Positions 33,160-38,571 of a stretch of 41,471 nucleotides of DNA are shown one piece after another. Under the pieces are notes generated by a model. The model did no database searches, was not told the DNA's origin, and saw only the letters and a program-made list of their open reading frames with translations. Position numbers and translations under genes: made by a program. Within the stretch, counting starts at the first letter, position 1. The number at the start of each line of letters is the position of its first letter. The stretch lies in contig JARGFK010000034.1 in the NCBI GenBank assembly GCA_029211065.1, positions 1 to 41,471 on the forward strand. The letters run 5' to 3'. This stretch comes from Desulfobacterales bacterium. GTDB lineage: Bacteria; Desulfobacterota; Desulfobacteria; Desulfobacterales; JARGFK01.

Positions 33160-33293
33160 AGCTGAATTTATACCCCGATTATCTGGTGATACGACCGTAA
33201 CAGCAATTTTCAGCGAATTTCAAAACGCGATCAACCGGTGCTCTTTATGTGTTGGCCGTCTTCACCGATAATTGCAGATCGTAAAATATATAC

Positions 33294-33322
33294 TTGACAA
33301 ATTCACCTGAACTTCATATGGT
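33294..33322 (+). promoter_or_regulatory. Promoter of the trp operon
   Basis: A consensus TTGACA (33294-33299) is followed after 17 bases by TATGGT (33317-33322). It is about 27 bases before the leader-peptide start, as expected for an attenuated trp operon. No TrpR-like palindrome was recognised around it. Confidence 0.6.
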
Positions 33323-33348
33323 CACATTCAATTCAGGAGTAAAACTAA

Positions 33349-33447
33349 TTGATTTCAACGATGAGCGCAAGCAGAAACAGCAGAAATACTTTTAAGGGCT
33401 GGTGGTGGTGGAACCACAGGGAGGGGTCTGCCGACGGAACCGCTTAA
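33349..33447 (+). CDS. trpL: trp operon leader peptide
   Basis: This 32-codon open frame has four consecutive UGG (Trp) codons at codons 18-21 (33400-33411). The TTG start at 33349 is chosen because AGGAG (33335-33339) lies 9 bases before it; an in-frame ATG at 33361 would be 21 bases from that site and give 28 codons. The reading ends GSADGTA then TAA. Ribosome stalling at the Trp codons when charged tRNA-Trp is scarce should control the hairpins that follow. It is too short for ordinary gene calling. Confidence 0.85.
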   Translation: MISTMSASRNSRNTFKGWWWWNHREGSADGTA

Positions 33448-33515
33448 GCCTGATGCAACACATAGGCAAACAATTCAAGGACCGTGGGCAGTCAACCCCA
33501 CGGTCCTTTTTGTTT
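33428..33515 (+). terminator. trp attenuator with intrinsic terminator
   Basis: The terminator stem pairs AAGGACCGTGGG (33477-33488) with CCCACGGTCCTT (33497-33508) around an 8-base loop and runs into TTTTTGTTT. Upstream, CTGCCGACGGAACC (33428-33441), at the end of the leader frame, can pair with GGACCGTGGGCAG (33479-33491): CTGCC with GGCAG, ACGG with CCGT, CC with GG. That gives the antiterminator that would form when the ribosome stalls at the Trp codons. The stem is seen directly; the switch is inferred from the E. coli model. Confidence 0.85.
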
Positions 33516-33520
33516 GGTCA

Positions 33521-33549
33521 AAGGGCCGTGGAAAACCACACGGCCTTTT
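33521..33549 (+). terminator. Second terminator-like hairpin before trpE
   Basis: AAGGGCCGTGG (33521-33531) and CCACACGGCCTTTT (33536-33549) form a stem with a two-base bulge and an AAAA loop, ending in a short T-run. It lies 22 bases before the trpE ATG. Its left arm GGGCCGTGG can instead pair with CCACGGTCC, the right arm of the first terminator. Confidence 0.6.
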
Positions 33550-33571
33550 GTCGTTAAAAGAAAGGAACACC

Positions 33572-35047
33572 ATGCTGCTTTCACAATTTCCGGAACTGAG
33601 CGAATTTAAAAAACTGGCACAACAGTTTAATGTCATACCGGTATGTGTTGAAATTCTGGCGGATACTGAAACGCCGGTTTCGCTGCTCAGAAAAGTACAC
33701 CACAGCCAAAAGCCCGCTTTTCTTTTTGAGAGTGTTGAAGGCGGTGAACGCTGGGGGCGTTACAGTTTTCTGAGCACTTCCATCCGTAGCCATGTGCGGG
33801 TATACGCCGAATACGTTGAAATAGAGCAGGAAGGTCAGAAACAACAACTCCCCCATGGGGGAAATCCGCTTTCGGTTTTAAGGATGCTGATGAGCCGATA
33901 CCGGGCAGCCCAGGTGCCCGGCCTGCCCCGTTTCTGGGGAGGGCTGGTGGGGTATATGACCTATGAAATGGTATCCTTCTTTGAAGCGATCCCCAACCGA
34001 ATGCCTCCGGAAAAGCCCATTGCCCATTTTATTATACCGGACGGCCTCCTGATTTTTGACAACATCCGCCACACCCTGCTTGCAGTGAGAATCTGTTTTC
34101 TGGACGAGCAGGTAAATCTTGATAAGGTTTTTGGGGAAGCCCGGGAAAAAATCAACGCCTTCCTGGACAAAATGGAACAGCACTTGCCGGAAAAACAAAA
34201 ACATCCGAACCCGGCCGGATGTCATCTTGCGGCGCTGTGGGAAGATGACCGCTATTGTTCGCTGGTCCACAAGGTAAAGGAATACATTCTGGCAGGAGAT
34301 GTCATCCAGACGGTCATCTCCCAGCCGTTTGGCTGCAGCCCGGCCCCTGATCTTTGGTCGCTATACCGCGCCCAGAGATTTATCAACCCTTCCCCCTATC
34401 TTTACTTTCTCCATCTGGACGATACCACCCTGATCGGTTCATCTCCGGAAACAATGGTTCGCCTGGAAAACGGCATCGCCACCCTGCGCCCCATTGCCGG
34501 AACCCGACCCAGAGGCAAAACCGAGCAGGAAGACCGATCCCTGGCGGATGAACTGCTCTCCGATGTAAAAGAACGGGCCGAACATCTCATGCTGGTGGAC
34601 CTGGGCCGCAACGACCTGGGGCGCGTGGCTGAAACCGGAACCGTTCAGGTGACGGACCTGATGGTTGTGGAGCGTTATTCACATGTGATGCATCTGGTCT
34701 CAAACATCTGCTGCGACGTCAAACCGAAATTCGATGCCTGGGATTTATTACAGGCAACCTTTCCGGCAGGGACCCTGTCCGGTGCGCCCAAGGTCAGGGC
34801 CATGGAAATTATCGCGGAACAGGAGCAGGGCCCCAGAGGCCCCTACGGCGGCGCCGTGGGGTATGTATCCTTTTCCGGCAACATGGACATGGCCATTACG
34901 ATCCGCACCGCCTGCGTTGAGAATGATCATTTGACGGTTCGGGCCGGCGCCGGCATCGTGGCGGATTCCGATCCGGAACGGGAACGCATTGAAACTGAAA
35001 ATAAAGCCATGGCCATTCAAAAAGCATTGCAGCTGATTCGGGCCTGA
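33572..35047 (+). CDS. trpE: Anthranilate synthase component I
   Basis: TrpE converts chorismate to anthranilate using ammonia from TrpG. The 491-residue form starts at the ATG at 33572 behind AAAGGAA. The N-terminal half holds the Trp feedback-inhibition region (FLFESVEGGERWGRYSFLS). The C-terminal chorismate-binding half has VISQPFG, LIGSSPETMVRL, the PIAGTRPRGKT box, LVDLGRNDLGRV and GTLSGAPKVRAMEII. The start lies downstream of the attenuator, so the gene is under leader control. The 13-base gap to trpG suggests coupled expression of the complex. Confidence 0.97.
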   Translation: MLLSQFPELSEFKKLAQQFNVIPVCVEILADTETPVSLLRKVHHSQKPAFLFESVEGGERWGRYSFLSTSIRSHVRVYAEYVEIEQEGQKQQLPHGGNPLSVLRMLMSRYRAAQVPGLPRFWGGLVGYMTYEMVSFFEAIPNRMPPEKPIAHFIIPDGLLIFDNIRHTLLAVRICFLDEQVNLDKVFGEAREKINAFLDKMEQHLPEKQKHPNPAGCHLAALWEDDRYCSLVHKVKEYILAGDVIQTVISQPFGCSPAPDLWSLYRAQRFINPSPYLYFLHLDDTTLIGSSPETMVRLENGIATLRPIAGTRPRGKTEQEDRSLADELLSDVKERAEHLMLVDLGRNDLGRVAETGTVQVTDLMVVERYSHVMHLVSNICCDVKPKFDAWDLLQATFPAGTLSGAPKVRAMEIIAEQEQGPRGPYGGAVGYVSFSGNMDMAITIRTACVENDHLTVRAGAGIVADSDPERERIETENKAMAIQKALQLIRA

Positions 35048-35060
35048 TGGAGGAAAACCG

Positions 35061-35663
35061 ATGATTGTTATGATTGACAACTATGATTCGTTTACCTACA
35101 ACCTGGTGCAATACCTTGAAGAACTGGGTGCACCGGTAAGCGTCTTTCGAAACGACAAGATCACGGTCGCCGAAATCGAGGCGCTGCAGCCTGCCGGGAT
35201 CGTCATTTCTCCGGGACCGGGGCGCCCCGAATCCGCAGGGATATCCATAGACGTGCTCAAGCATTTTTCCGGCAAAATACCCGTTCTCGGGGTCTGCCTG
35301 GGACATCAGGCCTTTGGCGAGGCCTTTGGCGCAAAGGTTGTCCCTGCTAAAAGACTGATGCACGGAAAGACGTCCACAATCAGTGCCGACGGCAAGGGCA
35401 TTTACCAGGGAATCCATAATCCCTTCCAGGCCATGCGTTATCACTCGCTGGCCGTCTCCCGGGATAATTTGCCGGACTGTTTGATGATCAGCGCGGAATC
35501 CGAAGACGGCGAAATCATGGGAATCCGTCATCGGGAACACGCCACTGAAGGGATTCAATTCCACCCGGAATCCATCATGACGCCGGTGGGTAAACGGCTG
35601 CTCAGAAATTTTTTTAATTTGACAAAGGAGGACACCCCGCATGTTTCGCGAAAATCTGAATAA
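35061..35663 (+). CDS. trpG: Anthranilate synthase component II (glutamine amidotransferase)
   Basis: TrpG is the class I glutaminase that supplies ammonia to TrpE. The 200-residue protein begins MIVMIDNYDSFTYNLVQYLE, typical of TrpG/PabA. The catalytic triad is C79 in GVCLGHQAFG, with H168 and E170 in IQFHPES. It is a stand-alone subunit and not fused to TrpD. Its last 23 bases overlap trpD, and the AAAGGAGG ribosome site of trpD lies within the trpG 3' end. Confidence 0.96.
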   Translation: MIVMIDNYDSFTYNLVQYLEELGAPVSVFRNDKITVAEIEALQPAGIVISPGPGRPESAGISIDVLKHFSGKIPVLGVCLGHQAFGEAFGAKVVPAKRLMHGKTSTISADGKGIYQGIHNPFQAMRYHSLAVSRDNLPDCLMISAESEDGEIMGIRHREHATEGIQFHPESIMTPVGKRLLRNFFNLTKEDTPHVSRKSE

Positions 35664-36657
35664 AATTATTCAAAGAAAAAACCTGAATGAAACAGAAATG
35701 TCGCAAATGATAACGGAAATATTCTCCGGCGACATAACCGATGCCCAAACCGGCGCATTCATGGCCGCTCTGGCAACCAAGGGCGAAACTTTTGAAGAAC
35801 TGGCCGGCGCAGCCAAAGCCATGCGGCGCAAGGCCCGCCGGATTCAGAATTCTTCAGCTACCGTTGTGGACACTTGCGGAACCGGCGGCGATGGCGCCAA
35901 CACCTTCAACATATCCACCACCACCGCCTTTGTGGTGGCCGGCTGCGGTGTAACCGTCGCCAAGCACGGCAACCGTTCGGTTTCAAGCCGGTGCGGCAGT
36001 GCCGATCTGCTGGAAGCCCTGGGTGTAAAGATCGATACGGAACCTGAACTGGTGGAAGAAGCGGTTGCTGAAATCGGCATCGGCTTTCTATTTGCACCCA
36101 TTTTCCACGGCGCCATGCGCTTTGCCGCCAAAGCCAGAAAAGAAGTCGGGCTTCGTTCCATCTTCAACATGCTGGGTCCCCTCACCAATCCGGCAGCAGC
36201 CAACTGCCAGCTTTTAGGCGTGTATCGGCCCGAACTGACGGAAATGTTTGCAAATGCCCTGAAGCTGCTGGGGGCCAAAAGAGCCTTCGTTGTTCACGGC
36301 CATGACGGCATGGATGAAATCAGCACCTGCGCTCCTACCCGGGTTTCCGAGCTCACGGGTGGTATGATCCGCACATACGATATTACCCCCGCGCAGTTCG
36401 ATATCAAGCAGGCGGGCCCCGCTGAATTAACCGGCGGGGATCCCCAAACAAACGCCGATATCACAAACAGGATTCTGAAAGGCGAAAAAGGCCCCAAACG
36501 GAACATTGTGCTACTGAATGCCGCCGCCGCCCTGGTGGCCGCCGGCAAGGCCCAAGACTTCAAAGCGGGTATTCGGTTGGCTGAAAATTCAATTGATACG
36601 GGCGCCGCGCTGGGCAAGCTGCAAGCGCTGGTCCGTTTTACCCAAGACAACGCTTAA
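35641..36657 (+). CDS. trpD: Anthranilate phosphoribosyltransferase
   Basis: TrpD joins anthranilate to phosphoribosyl pyrophosphate. The 338-residue length is standard. The PRPP-binding loop DTCGTGGDGANTFNIST is near residues 78-94, followed by VAKHGNRSVSSRCGSADLLE, FLFAPIFHGAMR (anthranilate site) and LGPLTNPA. The gene begins inside trpG and ends three bases before trpC. Confidence 0.97.
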   Translation: MFRENLNKIIQRKNLNETEMSQMITEIFSGDITDAQTGAFMAALATKGETFEELAGAAKAMRRKARRIQNSSATVVDTCGTGGDGANTFNISTTTAFVVAGCGVTVAKHGNRSVSSRCGSADLLEALGVKIDTEPELVEEAVAEIGIGFLFAPIFHGAMRFAAKARKEVGLRSIFNMLGPLTNPAAANCQLLGVYRPELTEMFANALKLLGAKRAFVVHGHDGMDEISTCAPTRVSELTGGMIRTYDITPAQFDIKQAGPAELTGGDPQTNADITNRILKGEKGPKRNIVLLNAAAALVAAGKAQDFKAGIRLAENSIDTGAALGKLQALVRFTQDNA

Positions 36658-36660
36658 AAC

Positions 36661-37458
36661 ATGAAAACAGATTTTTTAACCCGGATCATTGAAGATAAAA
36701 AACTGGCCGTGGCGGCAGCCAAAAAGAAAACCCCTGAGAACCGCCTGCGGGACGATGCTTTCCAACCCAGAGCGCGCCGACCGTTTAGGGAACGCTTTAC
36801 ACAGCCCGGTCCGGCGGGCATTAACATCGTCGCCGAAATCAAACGGGCCTCACCTTCAAAGGGGGTGATCCGTCCGGACCTGGATCCGGTGCAGTATGCC
36901 CGGGCTTTTGAGCGCGGCGGCGCTGCCGCGCTCTCGGTTCTGACGGAAAAGCACTATTTTCACGGCAGCGTCACAGATCTGACTGCCGCACGCGAAGCGA
37001 CTTCGCTGCCGGTCCTGCGAAAGGATTTTATCGTCTCAACCTACCAGCTATATGAATCCGCGCTGCTCAACGCCGATGCGGTTCTCCTGATCGTACGAAT
37101 CCTTTCACGGCAGCAATTGCAGGAATATCTTGATCTTTGCCGCCTGCTTCAACTGGATGCCCTGGTGGAAGTGCATTCTGAAAAGGATATTGAAACAGCC
37201 AATTGGTCCGGCGCCGAACTTATCGGTATCAACAACCGCAATTTAAGTTCTTTTAAAACCGACATCCAAACCGCCGTCCGGATAAAATCGCTCCTGCAGC
37301 CGCAGCAAGTGGCTATTGCTGCCAGCGGTATCGCCACGCGCCTGGACATCGTAAAAAATCTACAGGCCGGTATATGGAATTTTCTGATCGGTGAGAGCCT
37401 GGTACGGGCCAATGATCCGGAAAGGTTTCTTAAGAGACTGATGCCGGATACAGGCTGA
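36661..37458 (+). CDS. trpC: Indole-3-glycerol phosphate synthase
   Basis: TrpC closes the indole ring from carboxyphenylamino-deoxyribulose phosphate. This 265-residue TIM barrel is monofunctional. Motifs are VAEIKRASPSKG (catalytic Glu and Lys near the N terminus), VLTEKHYFHGS, PVLRKDFIVSTYQLYES with the catalytic Lys, ALVEVHSEKDI, GINNRNLSSF and SGIATRLDI, ending LIGESLVRAND. The ATG has no clear ribosome site and lies three bases after trpD, so it relies on translational coupling. A weak GGCAT/ATGCC hairpin with a TTTTGTTT tail (37466-37488) follows the gene. Confidence 0.97.
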   Translation: MKTDFLTRIIEDKKLAVAAAKKKTPENRLRDDAFQPRARRPFRERFTQPGPAGINIVAEIKRASPSKGVIRPDLDPVQYARAFERGGAAALSVLTEKHYFHGSVTDLTAAREATSLPVLRKDFIVSTYQLYESALLNADAVLLIVRILSRQQLQEYLDLCRLLQLDALVEVHSEKDIETANWSGAELIGINNRNLSSFKTDIQTAVRIKSLLQPQQVAIAASGIATRLDIVKNLQAGIWNFLIGESLVRANDPERFLKRLMPDTG

Positions 37459-37509: not shown

Positions 37510-37825
37510 ATTGATGTAATCTCCATCACTTGTTAAAATTACAAGTATCAAATTCCAAATGTCAAATAATTACCAATGACCAAAATTCGAAAATCCAAAT
37601 AATGATTCGTTCCGGAAAGTTTTGAACATTGATGATCTTGTAAAAAGTCGAAAATGCGCCTCTTTCGTCATTCCCGCGAAGGCGGGAATCCAATAATTTC
37701 AGACGGTTCTGGATTCCGGATCAAGTCCGGCATGACAATTGGAGTACTTTTTACGAATTCATCAACATTCGAATTTGAGATTTGTTTGTAATTTGGTACT
37801 TGAAATTTGAATTTTTATACACAAA
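37510..37825. repeat. AT-rich dispersed element, copy 2, split by an insert, inside the trp operon
   Basis: The left part (about 37530-37635; AATTACAAGTATCAAATTCC, CCAATGACCAAAATTCGAAA) and right part (about 37760-37820; GAATTTGAGATTTGTTTGTA, ATTTGGTACTTGAAATTTGA) are mutually complementary and align with copy 1 at 11340-11585. They are separated by about 125 bases. That insert has its own complementary ends, TGATGATCTTGTAAAAAGTC on the left and GTACTTTTTACGAATTCATC on the right, and holds the GTCATTCCC element. No gene is seen in the whole 37459-37893 gap. Confidence 0.75.
37667..37736. repeat. GTCATTCCC inverted-repeat element
   Basis: GTCATTCCCGCGAAGGCGGG onward (37667-37692) is followed by CTGGATTCCGGATCAAGTCC onward, ending CATGAC (37709-37736). 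Its ends GTCAT and ATGAC are complementary, and each half also contains its own short hairpin (CCCGCGAAGGCGGG; CCGGATCAAGTCCGG). A second copy is at 12505-12592. This type is widespread in proteobacterial intergenic DNA. Confidence 0.8.
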
Positions 37826-37893
37826 AACCAAGGATAAACCGGTTAACTCTGACGTGGCCCGAGGACCAGTTTTTCTATACTGGAACAAACAAT

Positions 37894-38571
37894 ATGAAAC
37901 CTTCACCAACTGAATTATATAGACCTCAAGTCAAAATCTGCGGCCTAACCTCCCCGGAAGCAGCATTGGCCTGCGCGGAACTGGGTGTCGACGCCATCGG
38001 GTGTGTATTTTTTCCCAAAAGCCCACGCCATTTGAGCGAAAGGCAGGCCAGGGAAATTTGCGCTGTTTTGCCTCCGGAAGTTAAGAAAGTGGGCGTGTTT
38101 GTAAACGAAACTTACTTGCATATCATGCAAAAGGTGGAACGCTGCGGATTAACAGTCGTTCAGCTGCACGGTCAGGAATCACCGGAATTGGTCCATGAGA
38201 TACTCAATAAAAATATTCCGGTCATCAAGGCCCTTTTTACCGCAGGCGTCCCGTCCTTTTCGGACGCTCAAAAATACCGGGCATCGGCCTTTCTGGTGGA
38301 ATGCGGCAGCGGGATACTGCCCGGCGGCAATGCCCTGACATGGGACTGGCAGCAGGCCCGAAAAATCAGCGAAACCTACCCCCTCATCCTAGCCGGCGGA
38401 CTTTCGCCTGATAATGTCTCGCAGGCCATCGCCGCCTGCCGTCCGGCAGCCGTGGATGTCAGTTCCGGCGTGGAAAAAGCTCCCGGCATAAAGGACCTCA
38501 CAAAGGTAAAGGCTTTTCTTGATTCGGTTTTTTGCAGTAAATATAAGGAAAAATTAAACAAGGTATTTTAA
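37894..38571 (+). CDS. trpF: Phosphoribosylanthranilate isomerase
   Basis: TrpF catalyses the Amadori rearrangement before TrpC. The ATG at 37894 gives 225 residues, the normal length; a frame extending to 37807 runs into the repeat and is not credible. The general base is C16 in VKICGLT. Further motifs are GCVFFPKSPRHLS, VGVFVNE, VVQLHGQES, LILAGGLSPDNV and AVDVSSGVEKAPGIKD. The general-acid position, usually Asp in LLDS, reads LVEC with Glu136. It follows trpC after 435 repeat-filled bases and no trpB or trpA follows; the next gene is convergent dctM. Confidence 0.94.
   Translation: MKPSPTELYRPQVKICGLTSPEAALACAELGVDAIGCVFFPKSPRHLSERQAREICAVLPPEVKKVGVFVNETYLHIMQKVERCGLTVVQLHGQESPELVHEILNKNIPVIKALFTAGVPSFSDAQKYRASAFLVECGSGILPGGNALTWDWQQARKISETYPLILAGGLSPDNVSQAIAACRPAAVDVSSGVEKAPGIKDLTKVKAFLDSVFCSKYKEKLNKVF

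Follow-up and report, generated by a model that had tools for sequence, protein, structure and literature searches.

A leader in front of the trpE gene of a Desulfobacterales bacterium probably acts as a ribosome-stalling tryptophan attenuator in which two sequential terminators are joined as a five-arm relay (arms 2 to 6). The helices of this relay (2:3, 3:4, 4:5 and 5:6) can be laid out in the window, by which we mean the whole 41,471-nucleotide stretch of DNA that was analysed, and at the level of sequence they are conserved and covary in its relatives. The genome, of 4.94 Mb, includes the window as contig C34 and is the sole representative of its family in our comparison set.

The trp leader and its two hairpins

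The original prediction had recognised in this leader a frame with four consecutive Trp codons, a U-tailed hairpin of 12 bp and an antiterminator arm, and its coordinates for all of these hold. It made no mention of a second hairpin, at 33520-33549, which is complementary to the first. The features of the region are as follows.

33294..33322, + strand: sigma-70-like promoter, TTGACA - 17 nt - TATGGT, 10 of 12 consensus matches
33335..33339, + strand: leader Shine-Dalgarno sequence AGGAG, 9 nt before TTG
33349..33447, + strand: leader frame MISTMSASRNSRNTFKGWWWWNHREGSADGTA*, 32 codons, from TTG (33349-33351) to TAA (33445-33447)
33400..33411, + strand: four consecutive Trp codons (UGG); Trp runs also in relatives
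33428..33441, + strand: arm 2, antiterminator arm in the 3' end of the leader, downstream of the predicted ribosome stall; pairs with arm 3
33477..33493, + strand: arm 3, 5' arm of terminator 1 plus the loop bases used by the antiterminator
33477..33508, + strand: hairpin 3:4, terminator 1, 12 bp, -22.2 kcal/mol, then a U-run; from scan, folding and covariation
33498..33509, + strand: arm 4 in its alternative pairing with arm 5, 12 bp, -18.1 to -19.6 kcal/mol according to the stretch folded
33520..33531, + strand: arm 5, 5' arm of hairpin 2, complementary to arm 4
33520..33549, + strand: hairpin 5:6, terminator 2, 11-12 bp, U tail UUUUG (run of 4)
33572..35047, + strand: trpE, anthranilate synthase component I; TIGR00564, E 1.5e-147, 492.3 bits, below the equivalog cut-off of 517.7
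35061..35663, + strand: trpG
35641..36657, + strand: trpD
36661..37458, + strand: trpC

One sigma-70-like promoter was seen near the leader against 0.5 expected by chance, and transcription would start at about 33329. An alternative ATG in the leader, at 33361, has no visible Shine-Dalgarno sequence. The TTG start had been called less common, and the candidate TTG is indeed unusual: under a rule that adds a bonus for ATG to the length of the Shine-Dalgarno match, it was the best start in four (window included) of the 129 trpE leaders with two U-tailed hairpins that are described below, ATG being best in 118, GTG in five and none in two. L162, one of the four TTG loci, is without a Shine-Dalgarno sequence. 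If used, the TTG of the window may keep leader synthesis low, as had been suggested. The same had been said of four adjacent Trp codons, and here the relatives speak against the prediction, since the maximum Trp count per seven codons was four in 50 of the 169 loci with a hairpin pair, three in 90, two in 26 and five in three.

Arm 2 pairs with 33479-33491 in a duplex of -20.5 kcal/mol. A 1:2 protector hairpin, which would free the terminator when the leader is not translated, is not clearly seen in the fold of the window, where the Trp codons are joined to the bases that directly follow them rather than to arm 2. Helices 3:4, 4:5 and 5:6 (11-12 bp each) compete with one another and 2:3 competes with 3:4; the energy of 5:6 is -18.4 kcal/mol (33520-33551), or -20.3 for a slightly longer stretch. 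A 481-base scan returned four terminator-like sites against 0.6 expected, two of the four being the opposite strand of hairpin 3:4. RNA folding had been proposed earlier as a check; the leader (33349-33530) folded more stably than its shuffled versions, of which 3 in 200 reached as low an energy (z -2.36). The U tail of hairpin 2, a run of four in the window, is longer in 111 of the 129 loci with two U-tailed hairpins; because of this short tail the second check, even if genuine in the family, may have little force in this organism.

A divergent cinA-like gene lies upstream of the leader. Downstream, trpF (open frame 37807-38571) is separated from trpC by 0.35 kb or more, in which no second attenuator was seen by eye and in which a repeated element lies. 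This element is an inverted repeat of MITE-like form at 37621-37773, and the stretch 37640-37780 matches its own genome at 43 places, counting itself, with 93-97% identity in the nine that rank next. A search of 58 genomes for TrpR (PF01371) found none in 51, the window's own genome among them, and PF01371 scored above its cut-off in 67 of 241 genomes of the class. Among loci assigned to a genome, both hairpins were U-tailed in 5 of 16 TrpR-positive against 85 of 122 TrpR-negative loci (Fisher p 0.004), a comparison that ignores phylogeny and is a lead only, because TrpR is concentrated in a few families.

Conservation and covariation in relatives

We collected 232 loci with a trpE start, of which 213 were non-identical and had at least 110 nt upstream. 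A frame with at least two Trp codons in seven, a permissive criterion that also picks up fragments of genes lying upstream, was present in 201 of these 213 regions and was followed by a U-tailed hairpin in 188; 13 regions had the frame without such a hairpin and 12 had no frame. Two adjacent hairpins were found in 169, and both were U-tailed in 129. In the 40 further pairs with one U-tailed member, it was the first hairpin that scored without a U-run in 27 and the second in 13, and 19 of the 188 loci were parsed with a single hairpin, some of them wrongly. Because all these remaining groups hold parse errors (by eye, two hairpins are visible in L003, L090 and L098), we relied on the 129 both-U-tailed loci. 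Earlier parses of the hairpin pair had been rejected for mis-assigning loci, the window included; they failed because long alternative hairpins took up the U-run.

In the both-U-tailed loci the arm-2 stretch begins a median of 14 nt past the last Trp codon. When upstream DNA was base-shuffled, at least three Trp codons in eight appeared in 5 of 1290 trials (129 loci of the phylum-wide set described in the last section). A chance origin of the putative leader attenuator is excluded, mainly by its conservation. Beyond Desulfobacterota, Trp-rich frames precede trpE in L076 (bacterium; GYGWWRTRYSRGR), L079 (Verrucomicrobia; QDWWWRNRYSRSR) and L082 (Phycisphaerales; TRFWWWRTW); a clear U-tailed hairpin pair was not seen at these three loci, which are possible Trp attenuators outside the phylum.

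The helices were examined by an arm-swap test, which asks whether an arm binds its own partner better than the partner from a paired species. It used 64 pairs from the 129 both-U-tailed loci, taken as disjoint on a rough tree built from the first 15 TrpE residues and from k-mers upstream of the Trp codons. The native partner was better in 39 pairs and worse in 5 for helix 3:4, and better in 43 and worse in 3 for 5:6, while a control pairing, 2:5, gave 23 against 26. Among informative pairs, 37 of 50 favoured the native partner for 2:3 and 13 did not (p 0.0005); for 4:5 the figures were 29 of 37 and 8 (p 0.0004). The result for 2:3 is partly post hoc, since the extended arm 3 was picked after the pairing in the window was known. 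With a shorter arm 3 the outcome for 2:3 was 21 against 24, a failure that followed from cutting the arm before the loop bases used by the antiterminator. The 4:5 result is not post hoc, as its arms were identical in both versions of the test, and the 4:5 duplex was reached by none of 100 shuffles in 92 of the 129 loci, or 94 in a repeat.

Alignment gave a similar picture of 4:5. In a MAFFT alignment of 56 both-U-tailed loci, picked for diversity, 91.0% of the 664 cells of 4:5 were paired, with double changes at 8 of its 12 pairs and a covariation score of 0.387 against 0.294 for shuffles, none of 500 being as high; as many doubly changed pairs as in the native alignment were seen in 16 of 500 shuffles, and as many pair types in 22 of 500. 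Sliding the register by one column lowered pairing to 57.6% and 53.4%. Helices 3:4 and 5:6 were paired in 93.5% and 94.3% of the same alignment. A reverse-complement control was dropped as meaningless for a hairpin, whose 5' arm it retains.

The hairpin pairs at non-trp loci, which belong to the wider set, were aligned separately (68 of 71 available pairs; L257, L355 and L268 were left out). Here 92.1% of 746 cells of 4:5 were paired, double changes fell at 8 of 11 pairs, and covariation was 0.344 against 0.260, again with none of 500 shuffles as high (8 of 500 matched the native doubly changed pairs and 38 of 500 the pair types). Where the core switches from CCGTGG to CCATGG, the 4:5 pair 44/87 becomes U-A in nine sequences and the hairpins carry A-U, in ten sequences for hairpin 1 and nine for hairpin 2. 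A nearest-neighbour swap test of 4:5 at the non-trp loci showed no signal for this helix (7 against 8, with 15 ties).

Control by translation of a Trp leader peptide, as originally predicted, is supported by the site ahead of trpEGDC, by the Trp runs in relatives and by the covarying terminator and 2:3 helix. The check proposed for the leader in related genomes likewise bears the prediction out, the Trp-rich frames being kept and the terminator and antiterminator arms covarying. The description of the attenuator as classical is right for leader-peptide attenuation and incomplete beyond it, for two hairpins and a third alternative helix are common in relatives.

The proposed relay and its alternatives

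We infer the order of folding, termination at both sites and the response to tryptophan as follows. When charged Trp-tRNA is low, a ribosome would stall on the UGG codons at 33400-33411 and leave arm 2 free to pair with arm 3. Terminator 1 (3:4) would then be avoided and arm 4 freed, and arm 4 in turn could pair with arm 5, block hairpin 5:6 and let polymerase enter trpE. When tryptophan is plentiful the ribosome would reach the stop codon at 33445 and cover arm 2, so that 3:4 and then 5:6 form. A single stall would in this way be read twice: should the ribosome restart between the two checks, 3:4 may re-form, releasing arm 5 and leading to termination at the second site.

Energy calculations are consistent with a part for arm 5. 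With the ribosome placed at the Trp codons, 8 of 129 loci had a 2:3 state no higher in energy than the 3:4 state before arm 5 was made, against 95 of 129 afterwards; with a shuffled arm 5 the figure was 14 of 129 (mean of 20 shuffles), and the native arm 5 beat all 20 shuffles in 109 of the 129 both-U-tailed loci. Arm 5 is made too late to affect terminator 1, but it can still act on terminator 2 and on how stable 2:3 is; the relay and the second check are proposed on this basis. In the window, arm 5 shrinks the gap between the 3:4 and 2:3 states from 14.0 to 1.8 kcal/mol, or from 11.8 to 2.8 by a second method. The terminated state is still the more stable in these models, so the switch would have to be kinetic.

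Loci whose first hairpin is without a U-run offer a further view of the relay, because at these only the second hairpin can terminate and the relay would be the sole route of control. They are L182, L187, L201, L225 and L230, all from one genus (g91, with TrpR in 5 of its 8 genomes), and L024, L051 and L108. Helix 4:5 reached the 5% shuffle level in six of the eight: of 500 shuffles, those as low numbered 2 in L201, 16 in L230, 21 in each of L182 and L024, 0 in L051 and 4 in L108. It failed at that level in L225 (100 of 500) and L187 (246 of 500), so this group supports the relay in part only.

The simplest alternative is a classical attenuator with one regulated terminator (2:3 against 3:4), behind which hairpin 2 is a plain fail-safe that does not pair with the first hairpin in vivo. 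Hairpin 3:4 alone would account for the window, where the U tail of hairpin 2 is short; 19 of 188 relatives were parsed with one terminator, and the nearest-neighbour swap test did not detect 4:5 at non-trp loci. Yet a constitutive second terminator would defeat induction, and a fail-safe places no demand on arm 5 to match arm 4, whereas 4:5 covaries and is kept even where the core has changed, as with GGCTGC in place of GGCCGTGG in Desulfobacula-type loci. We consider this explanation unlikely, if the strongest of the competitors. A special case of it, also without a function for 4:5, would make hairpin 2 a duplicate of hairpin 1 that conversion has kept alike. The CCGTGG/CCACGG core that the two hairpins share in many loci would fit such a history, but consistent differences separate them at sites that still let arm 4 pair with both: columns 45/82 form a U-G wobble in 40 of the 56 aligned sequences, with A-U in hairpin 1 in 46 and G-C in hairpin 2 in 43. 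Their loops and lengths differ too, and duplication with no pairing function appears improbable.

Control might also owe nothing to ribosome stalling, and work through a leader RNA or peptide acting in trans, a Trp-binding protein or a riboswitch. A role in trans is reported for the trp leader peptide of Sinorhizobium (S. meliloti) in the available part of PMC7298713. Against such schemes, the codon runs track the pathway (Trp as opposed to Tyr/Phe) at similar hairpin pairs, for which codon reading is the simple explanation; the window had no Rfam match at gathering threshold, and TrpR was not found in its genome. We regard this group of explanations as very improbable.

The relay that we favour resembles known systems in its parts. 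In textbook attenuation a single decision is taken at a single terminator. The E. coli trp attenuator has a leader with two adjacent UGG codons, an antiterminator 2:3 and a terminator 3:4 before trpE. The window shares with it (RF00513) the Trp-codon leader peptide, the opposition of 2:3 and 3:4 and the site before trpE; it differs in its second terminator hairpin, coupled through 4:5, in having four UGG codons rather than two, and in a leader stop that lies past arm 2. Rfam 15 gave nothing for the window at gathering thresholds and five chance-level matches (E >=3.1) near the leader; RF00513 (Trp_leader) was absent among matches up to E 10 in 33250-33620. The his attenuator of Salmonella and E. 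coli has six arms, which pair as A:B, C:D and E:F or as B:C and D:E, and only its last hairpin is a terminator. The likeness would lie in the register-shift relay, an alternative helix handing the state on to the next hairpin. Unlike his, both hairpins are U-tailed in 129 of the 213 trpE regions, and the five g91 loci listed above, whose first hairpin is without a U-run, look his-like.

The Trp attenuator itself is not claimed as unreported, and leader-peptide attenuation and register-shift relays of the his kind are already known. The attenuation screen of Lopatovskaya et al. 2010, reportedly a large one, may list single delta-proteobacterial trp attenuators. That study is cited in PMC4833913, the available part of which mentions 'chains of RNA helices'. 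Two terminators in series before one operon occur also in the Desulfovibrio thiSGHFE operon, which has tandem THI-elements each followed by a terminator (PMC545781, in the portion available); there each terminator has its own sensor, whereas here a single stalled ribosome seems to govern the two of them. The Corynebacterium ilvB attenuator, as presented in the accessible part of PMC11109978, is similar in having an upstream frame rich in codons for the product amino acids together with a terminator and an antiterminator, and differs in its amino acids, its phylum and the one terminator described. A leader-peptide attenuator with two coupled terminators was not described in the available portions of the literature searched (including PMC4833913, PMC3766115, PMC11109978 and PMC545781), nor was a same-phylum aromatic set with Tyr/Phe-run leaders. 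If the relay is real, applying one stall to two terminators could sharpen the response or reject brief stalls. Comparison of the variants found in nature, with changed cores, lost U-runs or single terminators, offers a way to study what the second terminator is for.

Tandem hairpins elsewhere in the phylum

R1, a covariance model describing the hairpin pair, was built from the trp loci with their sequence included, so that a likeness of its matches to trp hairpins is built in; it takes no account of leader codons or downstream genes. In the window's own genome it gave three strong matches, of 69.5 bits (the window), 59.6 and 56.5, and among the matches listed the other eight scored at most 33.7 bits, several being the opposite strand of the strong three. 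The two new loci are these.

G000:C2:20573-20646 (L235): before a DAHP synthase gene (TIGR01361, above cut-off); 59.6 bits; leader MIRSKTRGFFWRWWWISENAGSAIGFFST (FFWRWWW)
G000:C102:4014-4095 (L236): before an ADH synthase gene (TIGR01949, above cut-off); 56.5 bits; leader VNQTTSGRFYFWYYYYGTGLPVVL (FYFWYYYY), with an apparent GTG start; a partial DHQ synthase II frame lies behind the ADH synthase

At E 0.01 the model matched 330 of 394 genomes of the phylum, a count that includes chance matches, as six of eight genomes from other phyla, a small control, were matched at E 0.1 (best E 4e-7, 39.2 bits); only strong matches were therefore used. The set comprised 29 best-per-genome loci, 100 further strong matches from the top of the list and the two new own-genome loci, making 131 loci in 99 genomes. 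These 100 are the top of that list once three trpE places already collected, the two own-genome loci, G290:C1 and G369:C66 are passed over. A downstream protein was obtained at 129 of the 131 (L343 and L344 gave none), and 117 of these 129 genes fell in amino-acid classes: TrpE 40, DAHP synthase 34, ADH synthase 15, TrpD 8, aminotransferase 7, TrpB 5, acetolactate synthase 4, periplasmic binding protein 3 and chorismate-mutase/prephenate 1. Outside these were two nitronate monooxygenases and ten others, some of them wrong-frame calls such as L257, which is trpE-type by its leader (SNNNWWWW). Six loci of the family scanned against Rfam 15 had no match at gathering thresholds.

The aromatic codons of the leader mostly match the pathway of the downstream gene. 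At least three Trp codons in eight were present in 48 of 53 trp loci and in none of the 15 ADH synthase loci, all 15 of which had at least four Phe+Tyr codons. This second rule was also passed by all seven AroFGH-type DAHP synthase loci, six of seven aminotransferase loci, all three binding-protein loci and two of eight trpD loci, and by shuffled DNA in 57 of 1290 trials; the other 27 DAHP synthase loci divided into 18 with Trp and nine with Phe/Tyr leaders.

A tentative reading, to which we give slightly less than even weight, is that of a Desulfobacterota-wide family of two-checkpoint attenuators, in which a 4:5-coupled pair of terminators would be combined with interchangeable leaders and the same stall checked twice. 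On this reading Trp leaders would serve trp genes and many DAHP synthases, and Tyr/Phe leaders ADH synthase, AroFGH-type DAHP synthase, aminotransferases and uptake proteins; Ile/Leu/Val-rich frames, recognised only by eye, would serve acetolactate synthase. If the family is real, the double check would amount to proofreading: short pauses would be rejected and the range of control widened, in genomes mostly without TrpR. For this large phylum of environmental importance, the set would then chart how aromatic amino-acid synthesis is regulated.

Tyr/Phe-run leaders and tandem hairpins stand before the periplasmic binding protein genes of L298, L305 and L354, which suggests attenuated uptake of amino acids. 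Phe-run frames (FFFWGFFF and FAGGFFGFF) occur with tandem hairpins in L370 and L297, where the genes behind resemble, by eye, a phenylacetate-CoA ligase and an AMP-binding enzyme and are not obvious biosynthesis genes. In L330 and L339 a Leu-rich frame (RLLSLLLGLVLKG) and tandem hairpins precede a gene of the nitronate-monooxygenase family.
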